Part shown: positions 7,325 to 36,909 of the stretch, piece by piece | How the letters are laid out: the number at the start of each line of letters is the position of its first letter | Position numbering within the stretch: the stretch's first letter is position 1 | NCBI RefSeq assembly: GCF_010365785.1 | Contig: NZ_CP048387.1 | Span: 1-64,000 of the forward strand | Length of the DNA stretch: 64,000 bases | Origin: Spiroplasma sp. TIUS-1 | Lineage (GTDB): Bacteria > Bacillota_I > Bacilli_A > Mycoplasmatales > Mycoplasmataceae | Direction of reading: 5' to 3' | Made by a program: the position numbers and the translations under genes | The notes under the pieces: model-generated | Seen by the model: the letters and a program-made list of their open reading frames with translations, nothing else | Told to the model about the DNA's origin: nothing | The model's database searches: none

Positions 7325-8593
<1,269 letters not shown>

Positions 8594-8595
8594 CT

Positions 8596-8628
8596 AAAAT
8601 GTTTCACATGAAACATTTTTTATTTTAT
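8596..8628 (+). terminator. Terminator after serS built from a parS-like site
   Basis: AAAATGTTTCA (8596-8606) pairs perfectly with TGAAACATTTT (8609-8619), then TTTTATTTT. The stem contains the 16-mer TGTTTCACATGAAACA (8600-8615), which differs from consensus parS at one position, so the element may act both as RNA terminator and as ParB-binding DNA. Confidence 0.75.
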
Positions 8629-8637
8629 TAGTTAGTA

Positions 8638-8646
8638 TGTTAAAAT
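8638..8646 (+). promoter_or_regulatory. Extended -10 promoter of the SRP RNA gene
   Basis: TGTTAAAAT is the same extended -10 9-mer as upstream of gyrB. It ends 6 bp before the predicted 5' end of the RNA. Confidence 0.6.
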
Positions 8647-8652
8647 CATTTT

Positions 8653-8736
8653 GTCATTGTAGGGGTAACAGCTGAATCAGGTCAGGATCGGAAGATAGCA
8701 GCCTTAAGGAAACGTGCCTTGTACTTTGACTTTTTT
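8653..8736 (+). ncRNA. ffs: Signal recognition particle RNA (small 4.5S type)
   Basis: The conserved SRP domain IV hairpin is present: AGGTCAGGATCGGAAGATAG (8680-8699) followed by CAGCCTT matches the GGTCAGG...GGAAG...AGCAGCC signature that binds Ffh. Terminal GTCA (8653-8656) can pair with TGAC (8727-8730), after which a T run ends the gene. At about 80 nt it is the short form lacking an Alu domain, typical of Mollicutes. Confidence 0.92.
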
Positions 8737-8753: not shown

Positions 8754-9167
8754 ATGGATTACTTTAAAGAACTTTATAACCTTTTAGATAATTGCGATAA
8801 ATCACAAGATATACCAGTATCTGCGCTATTGGTTAATAGCAATAGTGAAATTGTTGCTAAATCGTATAATACAAGAAAACTAAATAACAATATATCTGAA
8901 CATGCTGAAATTAACGTAATAAATGAGTTAATTAGTAACATAAGTTATCAGAATCTTAGTGAATATACTTTATATACAACTTTAAAGCCTTGCACAATGT
9001 GCACTGGAGCTATAGAACAAGTTAAAATAAGAAAGGTTTTTTACTATGTTGAAAACAAGTTTAATACTTATGAAAGCCCAAACATTGAATATATACACTT
9101 AAGAAATGAGAAAAACATAGACTTATATGTCAAAAAATTACAAAATTGTTTTAAGAAACTAAGGTAA
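8754..9167 (+). CDS. tadA: tRNA-specific adenosine deaminase (A34 to inosine)
   Basis: This 137 aa cytidine-deaminase-fold enzyme converts the wobble adenosine of tRNA-Arg to inosine. The zinc and catalytic motif H50-A-E52 and PCTMC with C80 and C83 are intact. It is a little shorter than the usual 150-160 aa. ATG 8754 is chosen because GGAAAG lies 7 bp upstream; an in-frame TTG at 8739 lacks a site. The gene begins right after the SRP RNA, as in many Firmicutes. Confidence 0.88.
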   Translation: MDYFKELYNLLDNCDKSQDIPVSALLVNSNSEIVAKSYNTRKLNNNISEHAEINVINELISNISYQNLSEYTLYTTLKPCTMCTGAIEQVKIRKVFYYVENKFNTYESPNIEYIHLRNEKNIDLYVKKLQNCFKKLR

Positions 9168-9214: not shown

Positions 9215-11317
9215 ATGCAAAAGAAAAATTCATTATACAGATATTACAGACCCAAAACATTTAACGATGTTGCAGGTCATACAAATCTTAAAAAGATACT
9301 TATTGAGCAAATCAAAAACAATAAGTTTTCGCATGCTTTAATTTTTTCTGGTCAGCGAGGTACCGGTAAGACATCAGTTGCCAAGATTTTTGCTAAAGTC
9401 ATCAACTGTGAAAACCCTAAAGATGCTGCTTCATGTGAAACATGTAATAGTTGTATACAAGCAAATAATAATTCTCACCCAGATATCTTTGAACTAGATG
9501 CTGCTTCTAATAATGGTGTTGATGAAATGAGAAATATTAGAGCTAATGTATCTACTTTGCCCATTTTGTCTAAATATAAAGTTTATATAATAGATGAATT
9601 TCATATGTTAACAAAATCAGCTTATAATTCATTATTAAAAACACTTGAAGAACCACCTCAACACGTACAATTTATTTTAGCTACAACAGAGTTACATAAA
9701 ATACCTTTGACAATTATTTCAAGATGTCAAAATTTTAATTTTGCCCGTATAACTAAAGTTGATTTAAAAGAACAAATAAGTAAGATTGCCAAATTGGAAG
9801 GCATAGATGTAGAAGAAAAGGCTTTGGATGAAATATTTTATCTTTCAGAAGGATCATTAAGAGATGCAATTAACGCGTTAGAACAAGCTGGTTCGTATGC
9901 AAACAAAGTTACTGAGTCAGTATTAAAGGATGTGTTTTCAATAGCAACCAAGGAAGAAAAAATTGCTTTAATAAGCAAGGTTCTTGGTGGAGATGCTAAA
10001 TATGTTATTAGTTTTTTTGAAAATTCAGAGCAACAGGGTATTGATTTTCAGTCTCTTTCTCTTGATATCATTAACTTAATTAAGGAAATTGTTGAATTTA
10101 AAATGGTTGGTGAATTAAAAAAGAATTACAGCATAACTTTAGAAGAGGCAAATAGTTTTAAAAAATTTGATATTAGCTTATTATTTGATTTATCAGATGA
10201 AATAGCTAAAGCGTATGAATCTACAAAGGGTTCATCGATTGACAGTCAATTACTGTTAATTGCTTTATTAAAAGTTATTAATGTAAGTAAACTTATAAGT
10301 GTAGTAAATTCTGAAGTAGTTTTGAGCAACAAAATAACAAATAAAGAAGTTGAAATGAATAAAACTGAATTACCTCCTTTTAATAAAGAAGAAAAAAGAT
10401 TAGTTAAAACTGAATTCAATAAGTTAGAGGAAAGTACTAAAACTATTGAAATAAAAGAGAAAATTGTTGATGAAAAACCTAGTGTTTTAGGTGAAACTGA
10501 CAAAAAAAATGAATTAAAAGAAAAAACAAAAATTACAGAGAACATAGGGAAATATATTCTTGGTGAAGGTATTTTGGATAATATCAATCCTTCAATTGAA
10601 ATTACTGACTTAAATCTTGATCAAGGCATGTCTGTTGAAGAATTAATTGCCGATAAAACTATTGATAAACTACTAGAAGAAGAAACTGGTGTTATTAATA
10701 CAATGGATTTAGATACAGAATTGACAATTCCAATTAATGAAAAAGTTGTTTATGATCTATCGTATTTTGAGAATTTAAAGCATCAAGGACCATTGGATAA
10801 AAAGTATCAAGATATTGATACTATATGAATAGATGATGCAGAAATAGTTGCAACGCTATTAAACGCAGACAAAGTAAAACGTTTAAAATTTCAAACACTA
10901 ATAAATCAAATATTTGATATTAGTTCACCTCAATTTGATCCAACACTAGCTAAAAAATTAGTCCCTTTATTTGGTGCAAAAGTTTTAGCGGGTAGTGATA
11001 CTTCTATTGTTTTGATAATGGATACACCAATATTAAGTAACTATTTACAATATAAAATAAACAATTTGGATTTTAGAAAGCATATATTTGAAAAATTAGA
11101 TACTGAGTTAATTATTTACAGTGTAAGTAAAGAAAGAACAAAGATTTTAAAAGAAGAATATGTTTTAGCTGCTAAACATCCTGAAGAATATGTTATTCCA
11201 AATGTAGATGACTTTTATGAAAGTCTACAAGAGCAAATAAAGGATATGAGTGAGCCACCACTGGCTAAGGAATCTAAAGATTTATTTTTGGATGATGATT
11301 ACACGGTGATTAAATAA
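9215..11317 (+). CDS. dnaX: DNA polymerase III subunits gamma/tau
   Basis: DnaX (700 aa) is the clamp-loader ATPase. The Walker A motif GQRGTGKTS starts at G46, a zinc-binding cluster CENPKDAASCETCNSC follows, and LEEPP and the SRC sensor motif are present. Residues about 360-530 are a low-complexity acidic/Lys-rich linker to a C-terminal tau-like domain. TGA Trp lies at 10827. ATG 9215 follows GAGGGA; the upstream TTG is less likely. The stop overlaps the recR start by one base. A parS-like 14/16 site overlaps the zinc-cluster codons. Confidence 0.95.
9427..9442. other. parS-like site 3 (14/16)
   Basis: TGCTTCATGTGAAACA matches consensus parS at 14 of 16 positions. It lies in the dnaX zinc-cluster codons (SCET), so protein constraint could explain part of the match. 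Its support comes from clustering with the two better sites at 7729 and 8600. Confidence 0.4.
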
Positions 11318-36691: not shown

Positions 36692-36761
36692 AACTTTAAG
36701 ATTTTTGTTGTATTTAATTGATATATGTAATATTATTATATTGCTATTCATACCAAAGAAA

Positions 36762-36869
36762 GTAACAGGGGCAACCCTTAATTTGTTACCGAGGATGACG
36801 ATAAAATAACAACTAAGAAAATTAGTTTTATTTTTATTTAATCTCGGTCGACGACCGAGATTTTCTTTT
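36762..36869 (+). promoter_or_regulatory. L10 leader with attenuator upstream of rplJ
   Basis: GTAACA (36762-36767) pairs with TGTTAC (36784-36789), with a GGG/CCC inner helix and the conserved ACCGAGG element (36788-36794) of the L10 leader. Downstream, AATCTCGGTC (36840-36849) pairs with GACCGAGATT (36853-36862), followed by TTTTCTTTT, a terminator. ACCGAG can pair instead with CTCGGT (36843-36848) to form an antiterminator. L10-L12 binding to the upstream element would release the terminator. Confidence 0.8.
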
Positions 36870-36909
36870 GATTATAAATACAAAACAAACATTATATAAA
36901 GGAGACGAA

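Follow-up and report, generated by a model that had tools for sequence, protein, structure and literature searches.

Can one palindrome mark the chromosome for segregation as DNA and also end a transcript as RNA? The question is raised by positions 8596-8619 of the window (the whole 64,000-nucleotide stretch of the Spiroplasma sp. TIUS-1 genome analysed here), where an earlier sequence-only reading had proposed a parS-like site that doubles as the terminator of serS. The window covers the origin region of a mollicute in which TGA encodes tryptophan (code 4), and its gene order is dnaA, dnaN, gyrB, gyrA, serS, SRP RNA, tadA-like and dnaX, where tadA-like is the name that we presume, from its sequence, for a deaminase gene on the forward strand (8754-9167). 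The serS gene, which encodes seryl-tRNA synthetase, occupies 7325-8593 of the forward strand under code 4 and ends in a TAA stop at 8591-8593. Directly 3' of this stop lies the inverted repeat at 8596-8619, AAAA-TGTTTCACATGAAACA-TTTT, in which sequence and folding place a parS core between AAAA and TTTT flanks in the serS sense. The small SRP RNA gene (ffs) follows on the same strand at 8650-8736 (RF00169, 45.7 bits); judged by eye, TAAAAT at 8641-8646, preceded by TGT (together 8638-8646), may form an extended -10 element of its promoter. Farther along the window, a ribosomal protein L10 leader was found at 36735-36875 (RF00557, 72.4 bits).

The core at 8600-8615, found by pattern search, departs at one position from TGTTTCACGTGAAACA, which we take to be the parS consensus and used for scoring; the mismatch is one of the two central bases. 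The only exact parS lies inside serS at 7729-7744, where it is read as VSRET, 871 bp from the 8600 core, and had gone unmentioned in the earlier reading. A third sequence, with two mismatches, lies within dnaX (9427-9442) and may be there by chance. Altogether the window holds four matches with up to three mismatches, compared with 0.71 expected (3 of 100 shuffles reached four), and of the five places with up to two mismatches in the 811,521-bp genome, three are those at 7729, 8600 and 9427, within 1.7 kb. As is usual for parS, these sites are clustered and near the origin, with dnaA at position 1. Across the whole genome, parS has 15 matches with up to three mismatches versus 10 for the reversed pattern, which suggests that the weak matches are mostly chance; the weak parS-like sequences in other parts of the genome (L004-L011) have no hairpin with a T tail and look like chance as well. 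The sequence-only reading had named the lack of a ParB as fatal to its proposal. We looked, and a ParB-less genome could be rejected: ParB is encoded (PF02195, E 1e-32) beside parA and rsmG, and most of the protein can be aligned with Spo0J/ParB structures (6sdk, E 7e-48).

Across our sample of the order, 60 of 198 genomes carry the core pattern TGTTTCAYRTGAAACA and 64 of 196 encode ParB. The two occur together in 57 of the 64 ParB-encoding genomes; three genomes have the pattern without a ParB match, and seven encode ParB but lack the pattern, G052 among them having near matches. The CACATG variant of the core, as found here, is the sole core pattern in some ParB-encoding genomes (G028, G034 and G054). 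According to the available part of one report, JCVI-syn3A has neither ParB nor a clear parS (PMC8339304). The match counts within the genome and the co-occurrence of parS and ParB in the order led us to reject chance as the source of the parS at 8600.

The sites compared below are 93 pattern sites in 59 genomes, namely the 57 with ParB and two further parS-bearing genomes (G199 and G200) that lay outside the ParB search; duplicate loci (L119, L120) and ParB-less matches (L030, L031, L034) were excluded. In 47 of these 59 genomes the first intergenic parS lies 1-12 nt past the stop codon of serS (of gyrA in three genomes), and the exact core occupies the place behind serS in most ParB-encoding genomes of the order. 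With its core one mismatch from the consensus, a ParB encoded and its placement conserved, the parS-like palindrome proposed from the sequence is confirmed. In many genomes of genus g3 the stop codon falls inside the palindrome, in the arrangement AAATAA-parS-TTATTT followed by a T run. Three genomes (L051, L087, L096) from which serS has moved away keep the parS between gyrA and the SRP RNA gene, and four genomes of family f11 (L025, L027, L028, L029) carry it in the dnaX frame, read as VSRET or VSHET, and not behind serS. In both genomes of this genus serS contains an exact parS that is read as VSRET, though not at the same codons; that of the other genome (G159, locus L099) stands where the present genome has VNPEA, and from their sequences the two look like independent gains. 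A scan with SerS gave 13 named serS loci from other genera (10 of Lactiplantibacillus or Lactobacillus, 2 of Acidaminococcus and 1 of an uncultured Mollicutes), none of which has a parS with up to two mismatches nearby.

Read as arms, the site at 8596-8619 is AAAATGTTTCA-CA-TGAAACATTTT, with 11-nt arms that match perfectly around CA, and then TTTATTTTATT. It had been described as a perfect 11-bp terminator hairpin with a T tract; the 11-nt arms and the T-rich tail are there, but the RNA folds into a hairpin of 10 bp with a loop of 4 nt (-7.7 kcal/mol), and a perfect 11-bp stem would leave a loop of 2 nt. The folding z of the 61 nt around the site is -2.29, a value equalled by 2 of 200 shuffles. 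The tail, TTTTTTATTTTATT at 8616-8629 of the forward strand, contributes its first four T to pairing with AAAA and scores 5.9 as a T tail, whereas the window averages 2.27, with its 99th percentile at 4.27. By folding, by tail score and by the strict hairpin-plus-T rule given below, which the site passes, serS is directly followed by a hairpin and a T tract. Chance as the source of the hairpin was rejected by the shuffle folding, by the complementarity of the flanks and by the hairpin-plus-T counts. The site is absent from the list of a generic terminator scan of the window because that scan demands three G-C pairs. The hairpin is weak and begins 3 nt past the serS stop; eight terminators of ParB-less relatives have energies of -4.9 to -11.1 kcal/mol (ViennaRNA), which only places -7.7 kcal/mol within the usual range. 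In E. coli, a terminator near a stop codon is subject to repression by ribosomes, as stated in the accessible part of one study (PMC4824070), which speaks against strong termination at 8596-8619. ParB-less relatives too have hairpins that start at the stop.

The strict rule asked for a stem of at least 7 and a minimum of 6 T among 8, no more than 60 nt from the serS stop; 17 of 36 ParB-encoding genomes of the family passed it, compared with 43 of 2000 random segments and 26 of 1000 shuffled ones. In 15 of the 17 the parS is itself the stem, one of these (L050) being accounted for by the acceptance of CGTTTCACGTGAAACG by the regular expression, and two (L046 and L097) pass by means of a separate hairpin. 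The serS ends of the remaining 19 fail, among them that of G159, the sole other genome of this genus, whose parS lies 3 nt past the stop with an extension of 0. In three further genomes (L035, L098, L102) a separate hairpin can be seen by eye ahead of the parS, and it seems that in some relatives a second parS or a separate hairpin does the terminating instead. Among ParB-less genomes of the family (17 of the 18 were covered, all except G189), 11 of 17 have an ordinary hairpin and T tail in the same slot, and none has a parS there. From these ordinary hairpins the slot looks like a terminator slot, one that in ParB-encoding genomes is often filled by parS. One ParB-less relative (L103) has no hairpin ahead of the SRP RNA, so a terminator in that slot is dispensable. 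Tests of T counts by direction gave a mixed outcome.

The palindrome commonly continues beyond the 16-bp core. At 76 distinct intergenic sites the flanks pair perfectly over a mean of 5.49 bp, compared with a mean of 1.34 and a maximum of 2.05 in 5000 reshufflings; merging similar flanks leaves 31 sites with 2.94 versus 1.03 bp, which 0 of 20000 trials reached, although related genomes are not independent and such permutation tests correct for kinship only incompletely. For six parS inside genes the extension is 1.5 bp, compared with 0.8 on reshuffling (134 of 5000 trials reached it). Flanks that are specific to a lineage still pair with each other: TTAAGATTGTTAAT/ATTAACAATCT in f9, TCCGCAA/TTGCGGA in g6 and TTTTAAAC/GTTTAAAA in g9. 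Where the pairing breaks, there are 40 G-T against 18 A-C (ratio 0.69 versus 0.58 reshuffled, reached in 3 of 2000 trials), as would be expected if the RNA in the serS sense matters, in which G-T still pairs. Second parS copies in g3 (L048, L054, L091, L093) lie in palindromes extended by 18-20 bp, with the T tail behind the first hairpin as their left arm. In L036, L044, L045 and L092 a single parS has unmatched flanks that, by eye, combine the left flank of the relatives' site 1 with the right flank of their site 2; these likely arose by deletion between two parS copies. Judged by eye, single-site genomes such as G094 and G153 look like such deletions, which would mean that the extension of the hairpin can be lost.

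Sharing of a similar kind is found at the other end of serS in other families. The exact core was found in 82 of 296 genomes of a sample of the class that includes the members of the order, and 30 loci were read outside the order, from few families (none, for example, from f20, which is rich in sites); serS was within the 3-kb stretch in 14 of these 30. Of 395 genomes, 14 have a parS just ahead of the T-box sequence, compared with none for the reversed pattern. Alignments of nine of these genomes put the parS on the helix that precedes the T-box sequence, as its arms or its tip; this helix is, we take it, the one named stem III. All 14 loci match RF00230 (13 above the gathering score; L154 reaches 90.2, where 93 is needed), all lead into serS, and a ParB match is present in each of the 14 genomes, barely above the cut-off in G240. 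Their flanks extend the palindrome by 3.64 bp versus 1.31 reshuffled (0 of 5000 trials). The alignments indicate that stem III of the T-box leader of serS is made of parS in these families, which means that parS hairpins have been adopted as RNA parts. Seven of the 14 loci have a further parS 1370-1433 bp downstream, past serS, and three have another 232-250 bp upstream; in L136 and L137 the extended palindrome includes the stop codon.

How, then, is the palindrome at 8596-8619 best explained? It could be a parS and nothing more, with a hairpin that is inherent to any parS in a transcribed spacer and with transcription not stopped there; the pairing of the flanks would then be a feature of the DNA (ParB contacts, a cruciform tendency) or would have arisen incidentally through template switching at inverted repeats. 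Extended palindromes without a T tail agree with this: those of family f5 are long, and in g6 forward tails outscore reverse tails at no more than 5 of the 14 first sites and at none of the 8 later ones, so that the palindrome is extended even where its orientation is unsuited to a terminator. Later g3 sites, too, reach extensions of as much as 20 bp, and their right flanks are rich in A; L046, with an extension of 8, has its separate terminator upstream. Speaking against it are the sites inside genes, which hardly extend (mean 1.5, n=6), the T tails that follow at 15 of 36 serS ends, the preference for G-T over A-C breaks, the hairpin and T tail in the same slot of ParB-less relatives and the use of parS as a T-box stem. 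We regard this reading as possible, though rather unlikely.

The opposite simplification, a terminator whose TGTTTCA/TGAAACA stem resembles parS at 8600 by coincidence and is not bound by ParB, draws on the central-base departure of the core and on the exact parS 871 bp away in serS; it is very unlikely given the exact core at the same place in most ParB-encoding genomes of the order and the three such genomes whose sole core pattern is the CACATG variant. The sequence-only reading further suggested that ParB bound at the site could act as a roadblock; we give hardly any credence to a scheme in which ParB at parS halts RNA polymerase and the hairpin is incidental. The arrangement permits it, but RNA polymerase would reach ParB with the hairpin still to be made, which is mechanically awkward, and ParB clamps slide away.

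We therefore lean, by a modest degree, towards reading 8596-8619 as a chromosomal parS whose palindrome is built into the transcription terminator of serS. The proposal that one sequence serves segregation and termination is thus partly borne out: its position, the ParB gene, the conserved placement of parS, the pairing flanks, the T tails and the non-parS hairpins of ParB-less relatives support a double role, and the comparison of relatives suggests a single palindrome that is a landmark in DNA and a hairpin in RNA. In the most likely scheme, ParB would recognise the 16-bp core as DNA near the origin; the core and its species-specific complementary flanks would form the RNA hairpin; and hairpin and T-rich tail would stop RNA polymerase ahead of the SRP RNA gene; only the RNA would have a use for the flanks and the T tail. 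ParB on the core and the RNA hairpin would exclude each other in time because RNA polymerase must first copy the core. CTP-bound ParB leaves parS by sliding, and such exclusion at one copy would be tolerable because ParB need only load there before it slides. An extension of this idea, which we consider improbable, is that in the class serS is flanked by centromere sites that are working RNA parts, T-box stem III at the front and the terminator at the end; as ParB occupancy and folding of the serS RNA share bases, segregation and the expression of this serine-sensing gene could then affect each other. If the double role is true, a chromosomal centromere sequence is selected as DNA and RNA at once, which would explain why across a wide group parS has kept its place next to serS and the SRP RNA gene; mutants of parS would also alter gene expression, and the way in which a partition complex and RNA polymerase make use of a common sequence could be studied there in a simple system. 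In the open-access literature we found parS described neither as a terminator nor as part of a T-box, as far as the available parts of the sources extend (PMC12453411, PMC8339304, PMC12779278, PMC7414963) and with the main survey of parS sites not covered; the location of parS at serS may have been noticed before.

The site resembles chromosomal parS of the Spo0J/ParB type in being a 16-bp palindrome near the origin, in several copies and in a genome with ParB. Unlike the usual chromosomal parS, it is placed at the end of a gene, its flanks are complementary in a species-specific way and a T tail often follows; in other families it lies within a riboswitch stem. Stem III of the T-box leader (RF00230) is a comparable case of sharing at the opposite end of serS and, unlike the terminator site, is absent from the window. 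The site also resembles the low-GC terminators of mycoplasmas, AT-rich weak hairpins directly 3' of genes: in M. hyopneumoniae intrinsic termination with such hairpins is described, 23 of which were tested by RT-PCR and qPCR, and, in contrast to this site, the accessible part of that work does not describe their stems as sites of protein binding (PMC4411717). The use of a DNA recognition signal as a terminator stem is already known, to go by the available part of one study, for the DNA uptake signal sequences that sit in terminators of Neisseria and Pasteurellaceae, where a DNA signal recognised by a protein is likewise built into a terminator hairpin (PMC1852404). Uptake sequences, as described there, occur as two inverted copies per hairpin at hundreds of genes, whereas here a single self-palindromic centromere site would do so at one conserved gene end.
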